A stretch of DNA of 64,000 nucleotides from Ignavibacteria bacterium. GTDB taxonomy: Bacteria; Bacteroidota; Ignavibacteria; Ignavibacteriales; Ignavibacteriaceae. Location: positions 186,001-250,000 of the forward strand of contig JAJTBZ010000097.1 in the NCBI GenBank assembly GCA_021286645.1, given 5' to 3'. The notes below the pieces were generated by a model. The model was given only the letters and a program-made list of their open reading frames with translations, was not told the DNA's origin and did not search any database. Of the stretch, positions 51,817-63,061 are shown one piece after another (the first letter of the stretch is position 1; each line of letters starts with the position of its first letter). The position numbers were made by a program, and so were the translations under genes.

Positions 51817-52581
51817 TTATTTTGGCCGGGTAAATGGGATAAGTGCCGGGGTTCGGGATTTGTATAAATCCCATTGGGGGTTGTTGGTATATTTTTGTTC
51901 AAGCATAGGGATGCCGCTTACTTTTACTATAAGCACATTGAGCACTGCCGGGCCAATAAGTGAGTAGAAGCTGGTAAACGCCGCGGAAAAAATGCCAATG
52001 CCCCACCAGAGCATTATTTCACCAAAATAATTAGGATGTCTCGATACGCTCCATAAGCCGGTTGTCATTAACTGCCCCCGGGAGGAAGGTAGATTTTTAA
52101 ATTGGTAAAGCTGGAAATCGGCGACGCTTTCAAAAATGAGTCCGGTTAGGTACAATAAGAAACCGATACCGGCAACCAGGTAATTCCCGGTATTGTTATG
52201 TGTGAACATAAAGAAAATAGGTGCGGCTATAATCATCATTAGAACTCCCTGGAGCATGAATACGCGCAAGAATGCATTCAGTGCCTGCCGCTTACCCCAT
52301 GCTTCGCGAAAAGCAGTATATCTCTTATCCTCTCCTTTGCCAATTGATCTTGCAAGTATAAAAGTAGCTAATCGGAGAGCCCAAATAACTATCATGCCAA
52401 AGAGTATTATTTGGGACGGAAAAATCACCGTAGCAGTTAACATAAGGGTTAAACAAATTACTACAAATCCCGGTCCCCAGAAAATATCGATAATTGAATT
52501 GTTTTTCAGCCGCTGAGCAATAATGAAAATCATTATCAATGAAAGGAATATAACGGCAAATGAGGCCATAACCGCTTGCAT
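51817..52581 (-). CDS. DUF1295 (steroid 5-alpha-reductase-like) membrane protein
   Basis: 254 residues with about six hydrophobic helices. The DUF1295 marks are present: IDIFWGPGFVV near the start, the SRHPNYFGEIMLWWG motif near 185, and FYSLIGPAVLNVLIVKVSGIP. The family is related to 5-alpha-reductases and isoprenylcysteine methyltransferases, acting on lipids at the membrane. The start overlaps the stop of the MerR gene as TAATG, so it is translationally coupled to the regulator and belongs to the same lipid cluster, though on the opposite strand to the main operon. Confidence 0.82.
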   Translation of the reverse strand: MQAVMASFAVIFLSLIMIFIIAQRLKNNSIIDIFWGPGFVVICLTLMLTATVIFPSQIILFGMIVIWALRLATFILARSIGKGEDKRYTAFREAWGKRQALNAFLRVFMLQGVLMMIIAAPIFFMFTHNNTGNYLVAGIGFLLYLTGLIFESVADFQLYQFKNLPSSRGQLMTTGLWSVSRHPNYFGEIMLWWGIGIFSAAFTSFYSLIGPAVLNVLIVKVSGIPMLEQKYTNNPQWDLYKSRTPALIPFTRPK

Positions 52582-53531
52582 TATATTGCCTCGGTTTTAT
52601 CTGCTTGTGAGTGCACAGGCATGTTGGTAATTTTCTTCCGAATAACTGATAATGTTTGGCGGTATTGCCTGGCACTGGAAGTTACAATAGCCCGTATACC
52701 AAGTAAAGCAGAATGGTATCCACGGGCAGCCCGTCCGGAAGCTATAATAAAAGCATCCTCGCCGAGCAGAGAGCGAAGCCGCGGGATCTGCAATAATAAA
52801 GCCCCATCGTCTGCCGGATATACTAAACTAAGATGAACACAACGCGAGTGTAACTGTATGGCAGCAGATGCTATTTCCTCTACAGGCAGGCCCGGTCCAA
52901 GGTAAATGGTGCGCCAACCCTCAGATGAGGCAATAATTGAGGCCAGAACCGCCTCTAATTCGTGAAATTGTCCTTCAGGGGCGGCAATCACAATAGCCGG
53001 GGAGCTATTAGAGGCACTATATGAGGTTGATATCCTCGCGAGGAAAAATTTAATTGCGGATGAGGCAAAGTGCTCCTGTGCCACGCGCATTTCACCATCA
53101 TTCCACATATTACCAATTTTCTCTATCAGCGGAATGATAATCTGCTCGATAACTTCAATTACAGGTTTCTCAACGAGTACGGTACCAAGTAATTTGTGCA
53201 GTTTAGGGGAGTCGTATTCCCGTATAGCCTGAATACATTCGTCAATAAGCCCGATGAATTCGGATTGCATATTTTTTTTGGGTATATCCGGCCCGCCTAT
53301 TACCCGAAGCTGTTCGAGTTGCTCAAGCGAATGACCGGCAATATCACCAATTCGATGTCCTTCCTGTGTTAATTGCCCCAACAGTGTTAGTTTATCTAAA
53401 TCTGAATCGGTGTATAATCGTCTGTTGGACTCAGTCCTTTGTGGTTTAAAGGCCTCATATCGTTTTTCCCATGCCCGTATGGTCAGCTCGGGTACTCCCG
53501 AAATTCGGGAGACAGTTTTAATTGTGTGCAT
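52581..53531 (-). CDS. MerR-family regulator with B12-binding domain (CarH/LitR-like)
   Basis: 316 residues. An N-terminal MerR helix-turn-helix (about 3-70: IKTVSRISGVPELTIRAWEKRY) is followed by a four-helix B12-cap domain with the W-x9-EH motif (Trp143, Glu153-His154; MWNDGEMRVAQEH). A Rossmann-like B12 domain has the cobalt-ligand histidine at 190 in APEGQFHELEAV. These are the marks of adenosylcobalamin photoreceptors CarH/LitR, which bind DNA in the dark and let go in light. The glycine of the usual HxxG motif is Glu here. It is divergent from the lipid operon and the likely regulator of it; direct repeats lie in the shared intergenic region. Confidence 0.85.
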   Translation of the reverse strand: MHTIKTVSRISGVPELTIRAWEKRYEAFKPQRTESNRRLYTDSDLDKLTLLGQLTQEGHRIGDIAGHSLEQLEQLRVIGGPDIPKKNMQSEFIGLIDECIQAIREYDSPKLHKLLGTVLVEKPVIEVIEQIIIPLIEKIGNMWNDGEMRVAQEHFASSAIKFFLARISTSYSASNSSPAIVIAAPEGQFHELEAVLASIIASSEGWRTIYLGPGLPVEEIASAAIQLHSRCVHLSLVYPADDGALLLQIPRLRSLLGEDAFIIASGRAARGYHSALLGIRAIVTSSARQYRQTLSVIRKKITNMPVHSQADKTEAI

Positions 53532-53895
53532 AGCAATATATTAGACAATAATTATACATATTTGAGTAACAATTTCAATTTGTAAAGAGTTCAAACTGCT
53601 GAAATACAAGTAAAAATACAAAATCTTCCAACGGGAAAGCTAATATATTATAATGTAAATGGTTATCGGCATCCCGTTCCGCTCTACATTTACCGATTCC
53701 GTATTGTCTCCATCCCCTTATTTAGGCGCAGGGAACCAATAATATTATACAAATGTTATACAAACATAAATCAATTTTCCAATTTGTCAAAAATAAATTA
53801 ATGACAAATGATAAAATCAGCGAAAGGCAAGGAAATGCAGGTTGCATTGGAGTTAATTACACTGGCAGCCCGGGAAGGTCGGTTACCGGTTCACG
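53532..53895. promoter_or_regulatory. Divergent control region with 11-bp direct repeats and an inverted repeat
   Basis: The region between the MerR gene and the lipid operon. Two tandem 11-bp units, TTATACAAATG and TTATACAAACA, stand at 53745-53766. A third TTATACA lies at 53552-53558 close to the MerR start. An inverted repeat, ATTTGTCA/TGACAAAT, stands at 53782-53809. CarH-type proteins bind direct repeats spaced 11 bp that contain TACA, so these are candidate operators. No gene lies here. Confidence 0.55.
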
Positions 53896-54243
53896 ATGAA
53901 TAAAAATCAGCTTCTAATTGTTTTTTCAATCCTTTGGTTCTACATCGTTTACACGGTAATAACCACGAGCATGCAAAGCAATCTGTTCACCGAATGGAAT
54001 TATCTTGCATCAATTCCATGGATGCGGGCCACGCTGGTTGATTTTTATATTAACGTTGTGGCCATTTTTACATGGATTGCCCTTCGTGAGCGCTCCAAAC
54101 TTGCGTTAACATTCTGGTTACTCGGTCTGGTATTTCTTGGCAGTATTGCTACTACAACCTATATAATTGTCCAATTAATAAAATTAAAAGCGGGCGAGCC
54201 GGTTAGCAATGCTTTCAGCCCCCTTGCTTACCGAAGGAGATAG
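53896..54243 (+). CDS. DUF1475-like small membrane protein
   Basis: 115 residues, three hydrophobic helices. The loop WNYLASIPWMRATLVDFYINVVAIF with PWMRATLVDFY resembles DUF1475 (a membrane family with a PW-x-x-ATL-x-D-x-Y motif), and WIALRERSKLALTFWLLGLVFLGSI fits the same pattern. First gene of the lipid operon, ending 1 bp before the next start. Function unknown. Confidence 0.6.
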   Translation: MNKNQLLIVFSILWFYIVYTVITTSMQSNLFTEWNYLASIPWMRATLVDFYINVVAIFTWIALRERSKLALTFWLLGLVFLGSIATTTYIIVQLIKLKAGEPVSNAFSPLAYRRR

Positions 54244-54244
54244 T

Positions 54245-55276
54245 ATGAATTACGAAGTGTTATTACATAAAGATTTATTGCCGGACTTTGCAATTCGTTA
54301 TGGAATCAAACGATTGTTGCATGAGCGGCTGGCGGAAGAATCTGAACGGGATAAAGAATTGCAACAGTTGAGATTTATGAAATTGGTTGAACAGTTGAAA
54401 GCTACACCAATGGCAATAAATACTACAGAGGCGAATCAACAGCATTATGAAGTTCCTGCTGAGTTTTATATGAAAACTCTTGGGAAAAGGCTGAAATATA
54501 GCTGCGCGTATTGGGATGAAGGAACGCCTGACCTGAACACTGCAGAAGAAAAGATGCTTCAGTTAACATGCGAGCGGGCAGGAGTGAGGAATAATGAAAC
54601 AATTTTAGAACTCGGCTGCGGTTGGGGCTCGTTAACGTTATATATGGCTCAGTATTATCCTCAGTCAAACATTGTGGCAGTAAGTAACTCACATAGTCAG
54701 AAGCGCTTTATTGATGCGCGTTCGGCGGAACTGGGCCTGAGCAATGTAACAGTAATTACTGCAGATATCAACCAATTTACGACCGATGTTCAATTCGATA
54801 GAATCGTGTCTGTTGAAATGTTTGAACACGTACGCAATTACGAGTTGCTTTTCGGAAAAGTTTATTCGTTCCTGAAACCGGGAGGGCACTTATTTGTTCA
54901 CATTTTTACCCACAAGGATTTCGCCTATCTGTTTGATATTAAAGATGAAAGCGACTGGATGGCAAAGTACTTTTTTACCGGCGGCATAATGCCCAGCAAC
55001 CACCTGCTGCTGTACTTTGCACAAGGTTTTCGCACGCTTGGGCATTGGGTTGTGAATGGAACCAATTATGGCAAAACAGCCGAAGCCTGGCTGGCAAATA
55101 TGGATGCAAACGAAACCGCTGTAAAAGAGATTTTTGCCAATATTTATGGTAAAAACTCTGTTACCGGGTGGTGGGTTAAATGGCGTGTGTTTTTTATGAG
55201 TTGTGCTGAATTATGGAATTATAATGAAGGTAATGAGTGGTACGTGAGTCATTATTTATTTCAAAAGAACGGTTGA
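54245..55276 (+). CDS. Coclaurine N-methyltransferase-like SAM methyltransferase (CFA-synthase superfamily)
   Basis: 343 residues from the ATG at 54245 (AAGGAG 5-6 bp upstream). It follows the plant coclaurine N-methyltransferase family closely: QHYEVPAEFYMKTLGKRLKY, the SAM motif ILELGCGWGSLTLYMA, VSVEMFEHVRNYE, and then the long diagnostic block YFFTGGIMPSNHLLLYF, HWVVNGTNYGKT, WWVKWRVFFMSCAEL. In bacteria such genes sit next to FAD oxidoreductase, DUF1365 and CFA-synthase genes and have been linked to the singlet-oxygen response and furan fatty acids in Rhodobacter sphaeroides. A lipid substrate is therefore more likely than an alkaloid. Confidence 0.8.
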   Translation: MNYEVLLHKDLLPDFAIRYGIKRLLHERLAEESERDKELQQLRFMKLVEQLKATPMAINTTEANQQHYEVPAEFYMKTLGKRLKYSCAYWDEGTPDLNTAEEKMLQLTCERAGVRNNETILELGCGWGSLTLYMAQYYPQSNIVAVSNSHSQKRFIDARSAELGLSNVTVITADINQFTTDVQFDRIVSVEMFEHVRNYELLFGKVYSFLKPGGHLFVHIFTHKDFAYLFDIKDESDWMAKYFFTGGIMPSNHLLLYFAQGFRTLGHWVVNGTNYGKTAEAWLANMDANETAVKEIFANIYGKNSVTGWWVKWRVFFMSCAELWNYNEGNEWYVSHYLFQKNG

Positions 55277-55278
55277 AT

Positions 55279-55998
55279 ATGAAAAACAGTATTGTACTTG
55301 TTATTGCAATATTTTTCTGCGTCTGGATGAATGGCGGGGCACAATCCAAACCTGTAGTTGGCAAAGCATACGATCTGAAATCAGCTTCATATTTATATTC
55401 GGAAATAACCAGTATTTTTCCCCATGATGGTAAATCATCGAAAATGGTTACAAGATATACGGATACTGACGGCCGTACATTTGCAGAACGTGTAATACAT
55501 CTGGGAAACAATCGTACCTGTCCCGATTTTACCCTGAATGATTTCCGCTCCGGTTATATTGAGGGAGCGAAGAATGAAGCGGATGGAAAGGTACGTGTGT
55601 ATAGCCGCAAGTCATTTAATGACCCTGTTGAAGAGAAATATTTAGTGATTCCCAAACCGTATGTCATAGATGGCGGGCTGAATTTCTATATACGCGATAA
55701 CCTTTCAGCATTGCTGAGGGGCGAAATTCTTTGCTTTAATTTTGTAGCACCCGCAAAGCTGGACTATTACCGTTTCCGCGTTACGAGGGCTGACACTCAA
55801 AAGAAAATTGCTTCGAATGAGATTATACTGAAACTACAGCCGGATAGTTTTATTTTACGCGCGCTGGTATCCCCGATCTTTATTACCTATTCACTGGAAA
55901 CAAAAGAGCTGCTAATGTATAAAGGCTTATCGAATATTAACGATAACGCGGGGAAAAGTCTGATTGTTTCAATTGATTTTACGGAGAACTATAAGTGA
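55279..55998 (+). CDS. Exported protein of unknown function
   Basis: 239 residues from the ATG at 55279, 2 bp after the previous stop; the longer frame from 55237 overlaps the methyltransferase. A signal peptide (KNSIVLVIAIFFCVWMNGGAQ) precedes a strand-rich body (SASYLYSEITSIF, RYTDTDGRTFAERVIHLG). No family is recognised. Its place inside a lipid-modifying operon suggests a periplasmic helper such as a lipid carrier, by inference only. Its stop overlaps the next start. Confidence 0.7.
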   Translation: MKNSIVLVIAIFFCVWMNGGAQSKPVVGKAYDLKSASYLYSEITSIFPHDGKSSKMVTRYTDTDGRTFAERVIHLGNNRTCPDFTLNDFRSGYIEGAKNEADGKVRVYSRKSFNDPVEEKYLVIPKPYVIDGGLNFYIRDNLSALLRGEILCFNFVAPAKLDYYRFRVTRADTQKKIASNEIILKLQPDSFILRALVSPIFITYSLETKELLMYKGLSNINDNAGKSLIVSIDFTENYK

Positions 55999-57260
55999 TG
56001 GAAAAACTTGCGATAGTTGGAACAGGAATCGCCGGCATGGGCGCTGCATGGCTGTTAAAAGAAAAATATGATATCACCTTCTATGAAAAAAATAATTATC
56101 CAGGCGGCCATACTAATACGGTGACCGTTGATGAAAACGGGAAACCTGTATTTATTGATACGGGATTCATGGTGTTTAATAAAGTTACATACCCCAACCT
56201 GGTAAAGTTATTTGATATTTTACAGGTACCCATTAAACAGACGAGCATGTCATTCAGCGTGCAACATCTTCCTTCCGGGCTTGAGTATTGCGGCTCGGGG
56301 TTGAACGGGCTATTCGCGCAACGGAAAAACTTGTTTAATCCAGGCTTCATCTCTATGCTTTTTGAAATAAACCGGTTCAACTCCGAAGCATTGGAATTAC
56401 TTGCCGGGGATGCAGACAGGGGACTTACGCTTGGCAGTTATATCAGACAGAAAGGCTACCACTCCGAGATACTCGAAAAATACCTGCTGCCGATGAGCTC
56501 CGCTGTATGGTCAACACCGCCAAATAAAATGCTCGAATTCCCTGCTGCTACGTTAGTGCAGTTTTTCTACAATCATGGCTTTCTCGGATTAAATACTCAA
56601 CATCAATGGTACACTATTGTAAATGGGAGTCAGGCGTACAGGAGTAAATTACTTGGCAGTTTCGCGCATAATTTAAAACTGAAAAAGGGTATAGTAAGAA
56701 TTGAGAGAATCCCGGAAGGTGTGGAGTTGATAACAAATGACGGGCAGCGGGAGACGTTTGATAAAGTAATTATTGCTTCGCATGCCGATGAGGCATTGGC
56801 AATGCTCGATATGCCCACTGTTCTTGAACAACGGCTGCTTACGCCATTTAAATATCAGCACAATACGGCAACACTTCACACGGATACAGCCGTAATGCCC
56901 AGGGCAAAACGGGCCTGGTCATCATGGAATTACCGGATAGCCAAAAGCAATAACGATGTATTCGCATCGGTTATATACTATATGAACAGCCTGCAACAAG
57001 TATCTGATACAAAGGATTATTTTGTTTCGATTGATGATCCCGGTGCGGTGCGGGAGGAGCATGTTCTCAGGAAGATTGATTATACACATCCGCTGTTTAA
57101 TTCAAAAACTGCTGCTGTTCAGCCGGAACTGTACAAATTGAATATGCAAAATAATAATACGTATTTCTGCGGGAGTTATTTCAAGTACGGTTTTCACGAG
57201 GACGCGTTTACAAGCGCGGTATCCCTTGCTAAAATATTGGATCCGGGCCTTGTATGGTGA
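55998..57260 (+). CDS. FAD/NAD(P)-dependent oxidoreductase (amine-oxidase fold)
   Basis: 420 residues. The FAD-binding Rossmann motif is IVGTGIAGMGAA near the start, with the Glu of FYEKNNYPGGHTNTV. The C-terminal amine-oxidase end reads TYFCGSYFKYGFHEDAF. The branch is that of the DUF1365-associated oxidoreductases; a related desaturase (UfaD) in Rhodobacter furan fatty-acid synthesis introduces a second double bond (family-level analogy). The ATG at 55998 overlaps the preceding stop; a GTG at 55995 is the alternative. The next gene starts 7 bp inside its end. Confidence 0.85.
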   Translation: MEKLAIVGTGIAGMGAAWLLKEKYDITFYEKNNYPGGHTNTVTVDENGKPVFIDTGFMVFNKVTYPNLVKLFDILQVPIKQTSMSFSVQHLPSGLEYCGSGLNGLFAQRKNLFNPGFISMLFEINRFNSEALELLAGDADRGLTLGSYIRQKGYHSEILEKYLLPMSSAVWSTPPNKMLEFPAATLVQFFYNHGFLGLNTQHQWYTIVNGSQAYRSKLLGSFAHNLKLKKGIVRIERIPEGVELITNDGQRETFDKVIIASHADEALAMLDMPTVLEQRLLTPFKYQHNTATLHTDTAVMPRAKRAWSSWNYRIAKSNNDVFASVIYYMNSLQQVSDTKDYFVSIDDPGAVREEHVLRKIDYTHPLFNSKTAAVQPELYKLNMQNNNTYFCGSYFKYGFHEDAFTSAVSLAKILDPGLVW

Positions 57261-58030
57261 GCTGTATATATGAGTGTGTAGTTATGCATAAACGCCTTGT
57301 GTTCAAGAAGAATCACTTTAACTACAGGTATTTTATGTTTTATATTGATTTGGACGAGGCTGTAGAACTGCATAATAAACATCGTTTCTTTAGTGTGAAT
57401 AAATGGAACCTGTTTAGCTTGCGAGATCGTGACCACATGATATTTGATGCCCCGGGAATAAAAAGCAATATCATTAAGTATCTTAATGCAAATGGTATAT
57501 CCACCGGGGATATGAAAGTACATTTGTTAACCAACACGGCTGTGCTTGGTTATAATTTTAATCCCGTATCATTTTATTTCTGTTTTGATAAACAGGGTAA
57601 GCCCGTGTGCGTGGTTCCTGAAGTAGGAAACACTTTTGGCGAGTTGAAACCATATTTGGTAGGAAATGAAAATTTACAGGAAAATACGTTTAGTAAACGC
57701 GTGAAAAAAGAATTTTATGTATCACCCTTTATAGCGCATGATACATTTTTTGATTTCAATATCAACGTGCCGGGAAAAAAGCTAAGTATTCATATTGATG
57801 ATTATAAGGATGATGAAAAGATATTCATGTCACATCTTTCCGGCGTGAGAATGCCGCTTTCCGATGCGTTACTGTTGAAATACGCACTCAGGTATCCATT
57901 GGTAACCCTAAAAATTATTGCGCTTATACATTATCAGGCGCTGAAATTATTCATAAGTGGATTACCATTCTTTAGAAAAATTGAATTCCCGGAATTACAA
58001 ATTGGAGTTATGCAAAAATGGAAAAGTTAA
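57254..58030 (+). CDS. DUF1365 domain protein
   Basis: 258 residues. A family-typical N-terminus (SCIYECVVMHKRLVF, FNYRYFMFYIDLDEA) and NPVSFYFCFDK with FYVSPFI are clear DUF1365 marks. The function of DUF1365 is unknown, but it accompanies FAD oxidoreductase and CFA-synthase genes in many bacteria. The start overlaps the preceding gene by 7 bp and the end overlaps the next by 13 bp, so the trio is tightly coupled. Confidence 0.85.
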   Translation: MVSCIYECVVMHKRLVFKKNHFNYRYFMFYIDLDEAVELHNKHRFFSVNKWNLFSLRDRDHMIFDAPGIKSNIIKYLNANGISTGDMKVHLLTNTAVLGYNFNPVSFYFCFDKQGKPVCVVPEVGNTFGELKPYLVGNENLQENTFSKRVKKEFYVSPFIAHDTFFDFNINVPGKKLSIHIDDYKDDEKIFMSHLSGVRMPLSDALLLKYALRYPLVTLKIIALIHYQALKLFISGLPFFRKIEFPELQIGVMQKWKS

Positions 58031-59283
58031 TTGATATAATAGAACCTGTTCACAAATCATCGACAGGCATTATGATACAGTATTACGAAAAAATCATACG
58101 AAGGATTTTGCAGGGAATGAAAAAAGGCAAGTTAACGGTTCAGTTCCCCGATGGTTCCATAGAAAATTTTGGTGGGCAGGATTCTGAAATCACGGCTCGA
58201 ATTACTATCCGGACTCCTGAGTTTTTCAGGAAGGTAGTTCTTTATGGCGATATTGGTTTCGGCGAAGCGTATGTGGATGGCGACTGGCAAACCGATGATA
58301 TTACCGCGGTTATCTCCTGGATGATAGCAAATATAGAGAACAATCCCGGTATAAGCGGTTCAAAAAATTCTGTCAGCCTGTTCGGGCTGTTCAGTAAAAT
58401 AAACAGGCTTTTTCATCTCGCGCGTAAAAACTCCATACGCGGAAGCAGGAAAAATATCAGCGAGCACTACGACTTAAGTAATGAGTTCTTTGCCCTCTGG
58501 TTAGATAAAAGCATGACTTACTCTTCTGCCATCGATCTAGAACACTCTGGTGATTTATATACCGGGCAGCAGGCGAAATACCGGCGGCTTTGTGAGCAGT
58601 TACAAATTACCGATACCGATAGTATCCTTGAAATAGGCTGCGGGTGGGGAGGCTTTAGCATGTTTGCTGCTGCTGTTTACGGGTGTAAAGTAACTGCAAT
58701 AACCATTTCCCGTGAGCAGTACGCGTACGTGAAACGGCTCATTGCAGAGAACGGAATGGAACATAAGATAACCGTATTGCTGCAGGATTATAGGACACTT
58801 ACCGGGAAATTTGATAAAATTGTTTCAATTGAGATGCTTGAGGCAGTCGGGCATGAATTTTTGCCGGTATATTTTAGAAAAATCCATGAGTTGTTAAGCA
58901 ACGGGGGCGCTGTTGCTTTGCAGGTTATCACTTCTCATGATTGTAACTACGATAAATTGCGTAAGGGAGTTGACTGGATACAAAAATATATTTTCCCCGG
59001 CTCGTTGTTGCCTTCAATAGGGGCAATACAGGCAGCAGTTCAAAAAACAGGGAACCTGACTTTACATGACGCGAAAAACTTTGGCATCGATTACGCGGAA
59101 ACCCTGCGCATGTGGCGGGAACGATTTAACGAGCGCGTGCATGAGGTGAAGCAGCTAAATTTTGATGATGATTTTATCCGAAAATGGAATTACTATTTAT
59201 CGTATTGTGAGGCGGCATTCAGGATGAGGAATATTAACCTGATGCAGCTTGTTTATACACGCCCTAACAATGTACACATCTGA
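58018..59283 (+). CDS. Cyclopropane-fatty-acyl-phospholipid synthase-like methyltransferase
   Basis: 421 residues. The CFA_synth N-terminal part (about 30-130, YGDIGFGEAYVDGDWQTDD) is followed by the SAM domain with ISEHYDLSNEFFALWLD, ILEIGCGWGGFSMFAA, KIVSIEMLEAVGHEF and the lipid-site block IFPGSLLPSIGAIQ. The fold methylates cis double bonds of phospholipid acyl chains, giving a cyclopropane or a branched product. In the furan fatty-acid pathway a relative (UfaM) does the latter. With the other methyltransferase in the same operon, two separate methylations or a methylation plus a rearrangement are possible (inference). Confidence 0.88.
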   Translation: MEKLIDIIEPVHKSSTGIMIQYYEKIIRRILQGMKKGKLTVQFPDGSIENFGGQDSEITARITIRTPEFFRKVVLYGDIGFGEAYVDGDWQTDDITAVISWMIANIENNPGISGSKNSVSLFGLFSKINRLFHLARKNSIRGSRKNISEHYDLSNEFFALWLDKSMTYSSAIDLEHSGDLYTGQQAKYRRLCEQLQITDTDSILEIGCGWGGFSMFAAAVYGCKVTAITISREQYAYVKRLIAENGMEHKITVLLQDYRTLTGKFDKIVSIEMLEAVGHEFLPVYFRKIHELLSNGGAVALQVITSHDCNYDKLRKGVDWIQKYIFPGSLLPSIGAIQAAVQKTGNLTLHDAKNFGIDYAETLRMWRERFNERVHEVKQLNFDDDFIRKWNYYLSYCEAAFRMRNINLMQLVYTRPNNVHI

Positions 59284-59802: not shown

Positions 59803-60246
59803 ATAGGTGCACATTCGAGCAAAGTGGTATCGGCAAATATTGATTTGCTTAGTTATTTTGCTGTCAGAAAGAATATTAGCCTTCACATTAATGTTTCAGA
59901 AAACTACAATGTGCTTGCAGATGAAAATATGATAAGCTGCTTCCTGCAAAATCTTATCACGAATGCGATTAAATTTACGAAAGAAGGAGGTTGGGTAAAG
60001 TTAGTTACCGAAGACGATAATGATCAGATTGAAATTTGTATTAAAGATAATTGCATTGGTATATGAGAAGAACTAAAGAGCTCTCTCTTTAATATGAGCA
60101 CGAACAAAAGCAGCAATGGGACTGCGGGAGAACGTGGAACAGTATTAGGCTTGATATTAAGTAAATATTTTGTCGAGCGGCTGGGTGGACAAATTTGGAT
60201 AGAATGTACTGAAGGCCGGGGGCGAATTTTTCTTTATTGTACCCAA
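59803..60246 (+). pseudogene. Histidine-kinase HATPase remnant with an in-frame TGA
   Basis: Reads as a HATPase domain lacking its HisKA and sensor parts. LLSYFAVRKNISLHINV and MISCFLQNLITNAIKFTKEGG (N box) are intact, then CIKDNCIGI stops at a TGA (60064). The same frame goes on as EELKSSLFNM, the G2-like GTVLGLILSKYFVERLGGQIW and EGRGRIFLY. A single stop thus breaks the domain, and no start-proximal part remains. The end lies just before a repeat copy at 60287. Confidence 0.8.
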
Positions 60247-60286
60247 AGCATAAATGTTCTCCTGTGCATTGAATCTTCAGCTTGGC

Positions 60287-60328
60287 AAGTACTCCTTATC
60301 CCCAGTGGCAGCGAAACTGTGCGATACA
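60287..60328. repeat. tRNA-Arg-tail repeat, copy 1 (degenerate)
   Basis: A 42-bp match to the family seen at 60902 and at 62772-62984: AAGTAC, then CCAGTGGCA, GCGAA and CTGTGCG in the same order and spacing, with several changes. It sits immediately after the kinase remnant. Confidence 0.55.
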
Positions 60329-60355
60329 GAATGGAAAATGGAGGTGGTGAATAAG

Positions 60356-60418
60356 AAAAAGTACGACGGGCTCTTCAGATGTGGGTGTAGCTTTTATACG
60401 AATTTAAGCAAAAGGTGC
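60356..60418. repeat. Second repeat family (R), copy 1
   Basis: About 60 bp related to 60968-61030 and 62504-62564: AAGTAC, TTCAGATGT, a CTTTTA run and GAATT..AGCAAAA. It starts about 27 bp after the tRNA-tail copy, the same order as at the next locus. Confidence 0.45.
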
Positions 60419-60533
60419 CAAAATCCAACAACACCGAAAGTTTCCCAGACCGTCTCAAAAGTAATATATGGATTATCATGATTTATTTTAGGCGTGCAAA
60501 GTAAAATTTAACTTTCGATTTTCAGGATTGGCA

Positions 60534-60902
60534 ATGGATATCAGGGATTTTGAGATGGGAGCCAATAGGAAAGGTTTCCAATACAGCTATTTTTTGCCGG
60601 AAAAGATTAGTCTTTGCTTCGTCTGGACAAACGAAGCAATTAATGAGCTATTGGAAAGTGTGCCGTTGAAACTTGGTGAATTAAATTCCGTTTCCAAATT
60701 TGGACCCGATACAGACCATTTAATTATTACACATATAATCAAAGAATCTATAACCTCCGGCGGTATTGAAGGGACGAAAACGAATATTGAAGAGGCTCTC
60801 GCCGATGAAAAAGATATTAATCCGGAGCGCCATGACGATTGGAAAGAAGAAAACAACTACCTGTCTAGAATCAATCTACAGTGGGAAACATGGCCAAAAT
60901 AA
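60534..60902 (+). pseudogene. Truncated Fic protein (N-terminal Fic_N domain only)
   Basis: 122 residues from the ATG at 60534. It matches the N-terminal part of Fic AMP-transferases: YFLPEKISLCFVWTN, LLESVPLKLGELN, KFGPDTDHLIITHIIKESI and the inhibitory (S/T)xxxE(G/N) helix in SGGIEGTKTNIEEAL. It stops after DDWKEENNYLSRINL, while the catalytic HPFxDGNGR-bearing Fic core is missing. The stop falls inside the AAAAGTACC start of a repeat copy, so the gene looks cut off by the repeat or by loss of sequence at it. Confidence 0.75.
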
Positions 60903-60942
60903 AAAGTACCGCCGATGCCAGTGGCATCGAACCTGTGCGCAG
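60902..60942. repeat. tRNA-Arg-tail repeat, copy 2
   Basis: A 41-bp unit: AAAAGTACCGCCGATGCCA, then GTGGCATCGAACCTGTGCGCAG. Nearly identical to the copies 1.9 kb away at 62772 and 62844. It abuts the Fic remnant. Confidence 0.75.
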
Positions 60943-60967
60943 TTATTAAATTAATCTGAAGTGAAAT

Positions 60968-61030
60968 AAAAAATACCGCGGACGCTTTAGATGTTAGTAC
61001 CGCTCTAAAAGCGAATTAGGCGTAAAAAGC
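60968..61030. repeat. R repeat, copy 2
   Basis: AATACCGCGGACG, TTTAGATGTTAG, CTCTAAAAGCGAATTAGGC. It stands about 25 bp after tRNA-tail copy 2, as at the first locus. Confidence 0.45.
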
Positions 61031-61178
61031 TATATGTGGTTTCTTACAAGAATATATTGACAGTTCTTGTCCAGGTAACAATTGTTTCTTCATTAGGCTG
61101 TAAACTTCGCTTCGGTATAAAAGCCTATGATAAAAATTATTCCCCAGAGCTTATTTACGAACAAAAATTTCCTTTCCT

Positions 61179-62255
61179 CTATTTTAGGACGTCAGTATCC
61201 AGCCCACATATTTCGAGGGCTTTTTTCAACCGCGGCTCTGATATGCCTTCCTGCGAGAGCCTGCGAAGGGCTTCTTCCCTGCTCAACTTACCGGCTCTGA
61301 TAAGGTTACTGTACAGAGCCTGAGAATACGTGAATCCCAATTGTTTGAGAAAAGCTGTGTTTTTAACCGCTTCAAAAATACAGTCGGCGCGCCAGGTTGA
61401 AGTGCAGTCTTCCGGCAGAGCCCATTCAAAAATGCGAAGAGTCTCTTCAACTTCCGATTCATTCCAGTCCGCATAATGATAGTAATCGAATCTGAATATC
61501 TTTGGATATACGAGCCGAAACCAGATTGTGTACTGATTTACATATAACAAGGATGCCTTCAAAAAAACACCTAAATATCTCAGAATAGCAGGGTTGCGGA
61601 GCAGTACATAAATTCCTTTAGATATTCTTAACAAGTTATCCTTTACCATATTAAAAAACGAATAACGATCCTCTGCGTTAATATCAACAGATGCAGGCCC
61701 TGAAGGCAAATATTCAAATCGGTTTCCTCCATAAACAACAGACCGCACATTATATTCATGCGCGATTTTAAAAATGCTCATGTTTATATATTTGCAGGAA
61801 GCGCAGGCAAGATTAATAAAAATGGGAGCTTTTGTTTTTTTATACTGTTCCAAGCAAAAACGGGCAACAGTTTGGTGGTGAGCCGGAGTATCAACCTCAA
61901 TCAGATCGACATTGAGCTTTTCGGCAATTGTGCGGACATTCCTGATAATTTCTGGCGGGGTGAACGGCGTCTTTCCAAACACAGCGAGGCAGCGCAAATT
62001 GAGTTTGGTTGCTAGTTGAACGATTAAGTGGGTACTATCCCTGCCGCCGCTCCAGCCTACTACACAATCGTACTTTCGGCCTTTTCCATTGTAACGGATT
62101 TTCTTTATTAGATTTTCGAGAGCGAGAGTATCTGGCTTTACAAAAATGTGGCTGTTCAGGTTCGGTGAAGCGCATAATTTGCAAAGGCCTGTACTACTAA
62201 GGTGAAAATATTCCGATTCAGAAAGCACGCATGATTTACAAAATTTCTTACTCAT
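61179..62255 (-). CDS. N-acetyl sugar amidotransferase (WbuX/PseA-like)
   Basis: 358 residues. Two C-x2-C ribbons (FCKSCVL, LCKLCAS) are followed by a PP-loop ATPase with CVVGWSGGRDSTHLIVQL, then a TPAHHQTVARFCLEQYK part and INLACASCKYINMSIF with a further Cys pair. This is the plan of the WbpG/PseA/LegG-like enzymes that amidate N-acetyl sugars of surface polysaccharides using ammonia from a partner. No partner HisH/HisF-like or sugar-synthesis genes are next to it, so it is an orphan, boxed in by repeats on both sides. Probably acquired or left behind (inference). Confidence 0.78.
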   Translation of the reverse strand: MSKKFCKSCVLSESEYFHLSSTGLCKLCASPNLNSHIFVKPDTLALENLIKKIRYNGKGRKYDCVVGWSGGRDSTHLIVQLATKLNLRCLAVFGKTPFTPPEIIRNVRTIAEKLNVDLIEVDTPAHHQTVARFCLEQYKKTKAPIFINLACASCKYINMSIFKIAHEYNVRSVVYGGNRFEYLPSGPASVDINAEDRYSFFNMVKDNLLRISKGIYVLLRNPAILRYLGVFLKASLLYVNQYTIWFRLVYPKIFRFDYYHYADWNESEVEETLRIFEWALPEDCTSTWRADCIFEAVKNTAFLKQLGFTYSQALYSNLIRAGKLSREEALRRLSQEGISEPRLKKALEICGLDTDVLK

Positions 62256-62400
62256 ATCTTGACTTTCATTTTGAAAAAAAACGGCATGGTGTTCAAATTG
62301 ATTGTTTAAGGAAATTTATGAAATTGCCCGTATCAAGGCAGACAATAATCATAGTATCGGATGTTTTCTCCAGGGCTAAATATTTGAACTTATATATATG

Positions 62401-62422
62401 ACAATATATATATATATATTGT
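62401..62422. repeat. AT-alternating palindrome
   Basis: ACAAT, a run of alternating AT, and ATTGT give a perfect 22-bp palindrome, 146 bp upstream of the amidotransferase start. It may form a cruciform; no other role is visible. Confidence 0.6.
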
Positions 62423-62503
62423 TAAGGCAAAAAGAGGAATGGAAAATTCTATATTGAGGCGACAGATATCTCCTTTTCATAACTGATCTCCCCTTCTCTC
62501 ATT

Positions 62504-62564
62504 AAAGAAGTACCGGGGTGTTCAGATGTTAGCGCTACTTTAGAGGCGAATTGAGGCAAAATAC
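62504..62564. repeat. R repeat, copy 3
   Basis: AAGAAGTACCGGGG, TTCAGATGTTAGCGC, CTTTAGAGGCGAATTGAGGC. The similarity to copy 1 continues about 80 bp further (a CCCAAACCTTCC-type block and AAAATATGG). Confidence 0.45.
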
Positions 62565-62771
62565 CACAGATTTCACGAGTATCCCAAACCTTCCAGAAAG
62601 TAAAATATGGGCGCAACTTGAGGGAAGATACAGGCTGCCGAGGCAACCGGATATTTATGTTCCATGAATATTTGAGAATGTTTTAAGTTTACATAGGTTT
62701 GAGTGAAAAGTGGCAGGGGTCAAATGAATGTACCAGCCAGTGGCCGGTATGTGCGTAGGGCTTGTTTAAAT

Positions 62772-62984
62772 AAAAGTACCGCCGATGCCAGTGGCATCGA
62801 CTCTGTGCAGTGAAGAAAAGAAAAAAATAGAAGTTTTAGAATGAAAAGTACCCCCGATGCCAATGGCATCGAACCTGTGCGCAGAAGAACAGAATAAAAG
62901 GGAAGCTTCAAAATGAAAAGTACCCCCGATGCCAGTGGCATCGAATCTGTGCGGTGAAGAAAAGAAAAGGAAGCTTTAAAATAA
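62772..62984. repeat. Tandem array of three tRNA-Arg-tail repeats, about 72 bp period
   Basis: Units start at 62772, 62844 and 62916, exactly 72 bp apart, and the real tRNA-Arg 3' end begins 69 bp further on. Each unit is AAAAGTACC(G/C)CCGATGCCA followed by a mirror half TGGCATCGA and CTGTGCG, then a purine-rich spacer (GAAGAAAAG, AAGCTT, AAAATG). The tRNA has the same AAAAGTACCCCCGA and TCGAACCTGTGCGCA ends, but with CAGGAG in place of the palindromic middle (CGATGCCA/TGGCATCG). A minus-strand frame across the array gives a 24-residue repeat, only because 72 is a multiple of three. Confidence 0.85.
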
Positions 62985-62989
62985 AAAAG

Positions 62990-63061
62990 TACCCCCGACA
63001 GGAGTCGAACCTGTGCGCATGGCTCCGGAGGCCACTGCTCTATCCACTGAGCTACGGGGGC
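62990..63061 (-). tRNA. tRNA-Arg (anticodon CCG)
   Basis: A complete cloverleaf on the minus strand. The acceptor GCCCCCG pairs with CGGGGGT, closing with a G-U. The anticodon stem GTGGC/GCCAT (last pair G-U type) carries the loop CTCCGGA, anticodon CCG (reads CGG, Arg). The T arm is ACAGG-TTCGACT-CCTGT. Discriminator A; no CCA encoded. It is followed by T residues, which act as its terminator. Repeats derived from its 3' end follow. Confidence 0.9.

Follow-up and report, generated by a model that had tools for sequence, protein, structure and literature searches.

Broken tRNA copies at the tRNA-Arg(CCG) locus

The 64-kb window (the whole stretch of DNA that was analysed) contains an intact tRNA-Arg(CCG) gene on the minus strand (62989-63061; ARAGORN, and Rfam at 64.5 bits). 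It is the only copy in the genome and is the parent of eight partial copies beside it, all on its own strand, in which the T-arm is interrupted by an insert. We refer to such copies as ghosts. They form two families: R1 has five members, of which four are clear and one has decayed, and R2, which a sequence-only reading of this DNA had overlooked, has three. On either side of the insert both families match the tail of tRNA-Arg(CCG), as that reading had claimed for R1, and since the T-arm is broken in every copy none of them can be a tRNA.

The R1 ghost nearest the tRNA (62916-62954, minus strand) consists of the T-arm/acceptor tail with a palindrome at 62927-62943, and next to it stand minus-strand copies at 62844-62883 (palindrome 62855-62871, centre A) and 62772-62810 (palindrome 62783-62799, with CCGCC in place of CCCCC in the acceptor part). 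These three are spaced exactly 72 bp apart in a tandem array that abuts the tRNA, just as had been described. Another copy lies 2 kb off (60902-60941, minus strand, palindrome 60913-60929). The fifth copy originally counted, at 60287, proves to be a decayed ghost (60285-60325, minus strand, seven mismatches) that has lost the left palindrome arm and retains CGAAACTGTGCG. The acceptor letters are CCCCC in the two copies nearest the tRNA and CCGCC in the next two, and the farthest copy is the most decayed, a gradient that fits growth of the array at its tRNA end.

Read on the tRNA strand, R1 runs GCGCACAGGTTCGA-TGCCASTGGCA-TCGGGGGTACTTTT, with small differences between copies, and comprises a variable-loop/T-stem part, an 11-nt palindromic insert that substitutes for CTCCTG of tRNA-Arg(CCG), the acceptor 3′ strand and post-tRNA bases. 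Together with flanking bases the insert makes up a palindrome of 17 nt, which folds into a hairpin of 7-9 bp, and CGATGCCASTGGCATCG thereby interrupts the T-arm of the cloverleaf. On the other strand the palindrome is CGATGCCA-[G/A]-TGGCATCG, in place of the tRNA's CAGGAG. That CAGGAG is replaced had been seen correctly; the 8+8 form given for the palindrome, which lacks the centre base, occurs nowhere, and the real form is 8+1+8.

R2 is the older repeat, with copies at about 60355, 60965 and 62505 that have tRNA-derived ends as in R1 and a different insert. It begins at GTACC and aligns to the tRNA-Arg(CCG) tail TTCG...GGTACTTTT, with an insert that is longer than that of R1 and has decayed. 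The best copy (60965-61030, minus strand; insert CTTTTAGA...TCTAAAG) directly adjoins the R1 ghost at 60902, and a second (60355-60470, minus strand) directly adjoins the decayed R1 ghost. The third (62505-62612, minus strand) has the tRNA ends TTCG...GGTAC around its longer, decayed insert.

Two coding sequences lie between the copies: a truncated N-terminal Fic fragment (60528-60902, plus strand; Pfam), whose stop codon abuts an R1 ghost, and an open 358-aa ORF (61179-62255, minus strand) that is amidotransferase-like by sequence and has a weak PAPS_reduct hit as its sole Pfam match. The kinase piece that had been placed with them is at the far edge instead, a stop-broken HATPase_c (histidine-kinase) fragment (59824-60354, plus strand; Pfam) that lies beyond the farthest ghost and runs into it. 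At 52581-59283 the window also holds a gene for a MerR-type regulator, followed by genes for cyclopropane-fatty-acid-synthase-like methyltransferases, an amine oxidase-like gene and other lipid genes, which looks like a light/B12-controlled cluster.

The motif TCGAACCTGTGCGC, with up to two mismatches, occurs at four places in the 64 kb, where 0.29 are expected and four were reached in 0 of 100 shuffles. A search of the whole genome, as had been suggested, found the exact motif at four places, all at the tRNA-Arg(CCG) locus (control, 0), and it is present in 0 of 96 relatives. As an exact sequence the copies are therefore limited to this locus, but as a type of structure they are not. In an Rfam scan of the array, which bears on the earlier suggestion of processed small RNAs, tRNA is the sole family matched, with no CRISPR, no known RNA family and no rtT RNA. 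An assembly error, raised earlier as a possible explanation, is unlikely because the units differ from each other and similar arrays are present in single-contig genomes.

Ghosts at other tRNA genes and in other phyla

Using pattern searches and tRNA-flank loci, we found that the same genome carries truncated tRNA copies with palindromised arms at tRNA-Asp (two loci), tRNA-Gly-tRNA-Cys, tRNA-Val(cac), tRNA-Pro and tRNA-Glu. The tRNA-Asp units, up to five in number and about 120 bp long, start in the D-loop and end past the terminator of the tRNA; in these a TCCCGC-GCGGGA hairpin replaces the anticodon arm and TCCCGAC-GTCGGGA replaces the T-arm. The tRNA-Gly-tRNA-Cys operon is present a second time; in this copy the anticodon arm of Gly holds TGCCACTGGCA, which is R1's core palindrome, and the T-arm holds another hairpin, while the Cys part has TCCC...GGGA hairpins in the D- and anticodon arms. 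Two tails at tRNA-Val(cac) carry CTGCAAGTGCCTCTGGCA. Genome-wide, TCCCGN4-9CGGGA is found at 38 places (control, 5), and 17 of the 38 are inside tRNA ghost arrays (binomial, 5.5e-12). Palindromes with arms of at least 6 were found in 13 of 17 copies at these loci, compared with 22% of random segments, and also in 19 of 42 real tRNAs with flanks; a minority of the ghost copies has no clear palindrome.

Relatives of the same order have ghosts too. In one genome tRNA-Arg(CCT) is followed by at least 24 units of 63 bp, and at tRNA-Arg(CCG) itself a genome of the order has, in succession, a 5′ ghost whose D-loop carries CCTGCCGGCGAGGCAGG, a GIY-YIG ORF and the intact tRNA. In the 63-bp array CCTGCC-TTCG-GGCAGG hairpins stand beside the tail, with two alternative hairpins possible per unit. 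Elsewhere, a tRNA-Thr gene with partial copies on both sides, one of them with a TCCCGC...GCGGGA hairpin, is possibly a further ghost locus. At another locus a copy of tRNA-Ser has a palindromic insertion exactly within the anticodon loop, an intron-like position.

To GTDB genomes we applied a generic pattern consisting of a D-stem, then TCCCG...CGGGA, then a variable loop. Among the matches listed there are at least 101 ghost-bearing loci; the first 80 loci gave 126 matches, of which 116 lie outside any ARAGORN tRNA. By record title the hosts among these listed matches are mostly Bacteroidota, with Ignavibacteriales, Chlorobi, Neomarinimicrobiota, Desulfobacteraceae, Acidobacteria, Patescibacteria and others. 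Within the phylum the same pattern, which is too narrow for its count to estimate prevalence, occurs in 7 of 396 genomes, single-contig genomes included (reversed control, 0). The loci contain both 5′ ghosts, which lie upstream and represent the 5′ half, and 3′ ghosts, and a real tRNA is nearby in 26 of the 31 listed loci that have full flanks. Some further loci have a full-length extra tRNA copy, with hairpin insertions in the D-loop, at the D/anticodon junction or in the T-loop. The palindrome modules TSCC...GGSA are common to unrelated tRNAs, and the native arm is not copied.

Association with small GIY-YIG nucleases

A small GIY-YIG ORF is found within 1.5 kb in 46 of the 101 ghost loci among the matches listed, at a median distance of 20 bp and on the strand of the ghost in all 46; among the listed loci with full flanks it is found in 16 of 31. 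The ghost pattern itself might have biased this association, and we therefore also sampled GIY-YIG genes independently of ghosts. In 100 genomes of the class, not selected for ghosts, 13 of the best 30 GIY-YIG loci have a tRNA within 1.5 kb, where about one is expected. Of 101 distinct GIY-YIG domains, 63 are near a tRNA, and the strand matches that of the tRNA in 63 of 63.

The nucleases also sort by tRNA isotype. On the GIY-YIG tree, which is built from few columns, leaves its deep forks without resolution and owes part of its isotype clustering to near-copies, isotype changes 36 times, against 58.9 when shuffled, with 0 of 200 shuffles as low. Pro(CGG) nucleases from three families group together. 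The nearest PDB relatives of the tRNA-linked nucleases are UPF0213 proteins (1zg2) and SLX1, a structure-specific endonuclease, and by sequence all belong to the same fold family. The tRNA-linked proteins nevertheless fall outside a separate, supported clade of 21 UPF0213-like proteins without a tRNA neighbour, and six residues of active-site type (Tyr, Gly, Arg, His, Glu and Lys) are invariant in them. A search for phage homologues of the Asp-type nuclease returned only two, both weak.

Complete units are arranged either as intact tRNA, small GIY-YIG ORF and ghost or as ghost, ORF and intact tRNA, and are often in tandem. One single-contig genome has two such arrays, each of three tandem units, which are 317 bp long at tRNA-Pro and 323 bp long at tRNA-Ser. 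In these the ghost lies within the 5′ leader of the ORF, and the near identity of the units suggests recent amplification. The genome studied here retains a GIY-YIG ORF next to its ghosts at only two loci, Asp and Val(tac).

Possible origin of the ghost arrays

tRNA genes are classic landing sites of mobile DNA, and the cases known to us use integrases. The broken copies resemble traces of a selfish element, little known so far, whose home is tRNA genes, and those at tRNA-Arg(CCG) are probably what is left of a tRNA-linked GIY-YIG homing element whose ORF is gone. The nuclease of such an element would cut the tRNA gene in element-free DNA, and repair off an occupied copy would insert the unit, keeping one intact tRNA and displacing part of the old gene as a ghost. 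Repeated cutting and unequal recombination could then multiply units into arrays and trap genes between them. Arrays that lack an ORF, such as that at tRNA-Arg(CCG), would be remnants or passengers, here presumably of an ORF-bearing parent. The earlier suggestion that a small mobile repeat had arisen from the tail of the tRNA was thus near the mark, with the difference that the copies are truncated tRNAs with a broken T-arm and belong to a widespread class that is often linked to GIY-YIG genes.

Several observations count against homing: there is no trace of a GIY-YIG gene in the 64-kb window, the units at tRNA-Arg(CCG) included; this genome retains an ORF at only two of its ghost loci; among ghost loci with full flanks an ORF is missing from roughly half; and a minority of the copies has no clear palindrome. 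Moreover, homing by itself gives no account of why the interruption is palindromic. The palindrome might mark or remove the cut site, leaving the ghost uncuttable; it might make recombinational loss of a unit lethal, as the restored tRNA would carry a hairpin; or it might be a structure recognised by the SLX1-like nuclease.

The closest described case is SegB, a free-standing GIY-YIG homing endonuclease of T-even phages whose gene adjoins tRNAs and which drives tandem amplification of tRNA-Tyr, the amplified segment containing the tRNA and a truncated segB (PMC13096335). There the genome is that of a phage, the amplified tRNA is full length and palindromes are unmentioned in the main text of the paper (PMC13096335), whereas ghost arrays are found in bacterial chromosomes and consist of hairpin-broken partial tRNA copies associated with isotype-sorted nucleases. 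In the open-access literature we found no account of such tRNA-linked GIY-YIG arrays in bacteria.

The best-surviving alternative, which we nonetheless consider unlikely, is a slippage-type tandem duplication of the tRNA tail, in which dead copies gain palindromes by template switching at hairpins and GIY-YIG genes settle later, the duplicated tRNA flanks being safe sites. It would suit units that take in the tRNA terminator and vary in their start points, as well as the many arrays without an ORF, and it has a known precedent in E. coli tyrT, where 178-bp repeats (rtT RNA) stand in tandem downstream of the tRNA, each with the tRNA 3′ tail. The tyrT tail, however, is not known to have a palindromic interruption or a GIY-YIG gene, and the array at tRNA-Arg(CCG), lacking any rtT match in Rfam, was rejected as a repeat of tyrT type. 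What duplication leaves unexplained is the recurrence of the TSCC...GGSA modules across unrelated tRNAs in place of the native arm, and the sorting of nucleases by isotype, all on the tRNA strand.

Less probable still is a mobile palindrome of REP or RPE type, dispersed through the genome and inserting into redundant copies of tRNA genes. Short palindromes that interrupt other sequences, double hairpins among them, are familiar from organelles and Rickettsia (GC clusters, double-hairpin elements and RPEs), and at two loci second tRNA copies of full length with cleanly inserted hairpins have the look of such events; another GIY-YIG class, described below, sits in dispersed palindromic repeats. 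The ghost palindromes differ in that they cluster in extra tRNA copies and are linked with GIY-YIG ORFs: nearly half of the TCCCGN4-9CGGGA places are in ghost arrays, and the full R1 motif is confined to tRNA-Arg(CCG). Genome counts, which do not show many dispersed copies, likewise disfavour it.

The first proposal for these repeats, that islands entering the tRNA 3′ end through a site-specific recombinase left serial attachment scars, is very improbable and was rejected: copies do flank cargo (the Fic fragment and the 358-aa ORF, with the HATPase fragment at the far edge), much as Dehalococcoides islands flank theirs with direct repeats of the ssrA 3′ end (PMC3146451), but those repeats are 20 bp long, uninterrupted and accompanied by serine-recombinase modules (PMC3146451), while here the tail is interrupted in each copy with no intact att core, the 72-bp units are free of cargo, 5′ ghosts exist at other loci, and the cargo ORFs at 59.8-62.3 kb have no integrase domain, their only Pfam matches being HATPase_c, Fic_N and the weak PAPS_reduct.

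Returning to homing, we put forward with more reserve than for the single locus the wider proposal that ghost arrays might represent undescribed, widespread chromosomal selfish elements. Each would combine an SLX1-like GIY-YIG nuclease with a palindromised ghost, be devoted to one isotype per lineage, use the palindrome functionally (as ghost immunity or as a lock against loss) and have spread as tandem or ORF-less arrays across phyla. If this is true, nuclease plus ghost would be another way to live on essential genes, in which one good tRNA is kept and the spares are broken, and it would account for many of the odd fragments of tRNA, and of the small GIY-YIG ORFs, that stand near tRNAs. The tRNA-linked GIY-YIG proteins would then offer a set of tiny nucleases, apparently isotype-specific, and the reading can be tested directly in cultured isolates of Indibacter, Pontibacter, Algoriphagus and Roseivirga.

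UPF0213-like GIY-YIG genes away from tRNAs, seen at two loci and in one of these three in tandem, lie within dispersed palindromic repeats of the form TTGTCATGCCTGCG...GGCATCCAG; no other structured RNAs were found beside non-tRNA GIY-YIG genes. The combination of a GIY-YIG gene and a palindrome may be a wider pairing.
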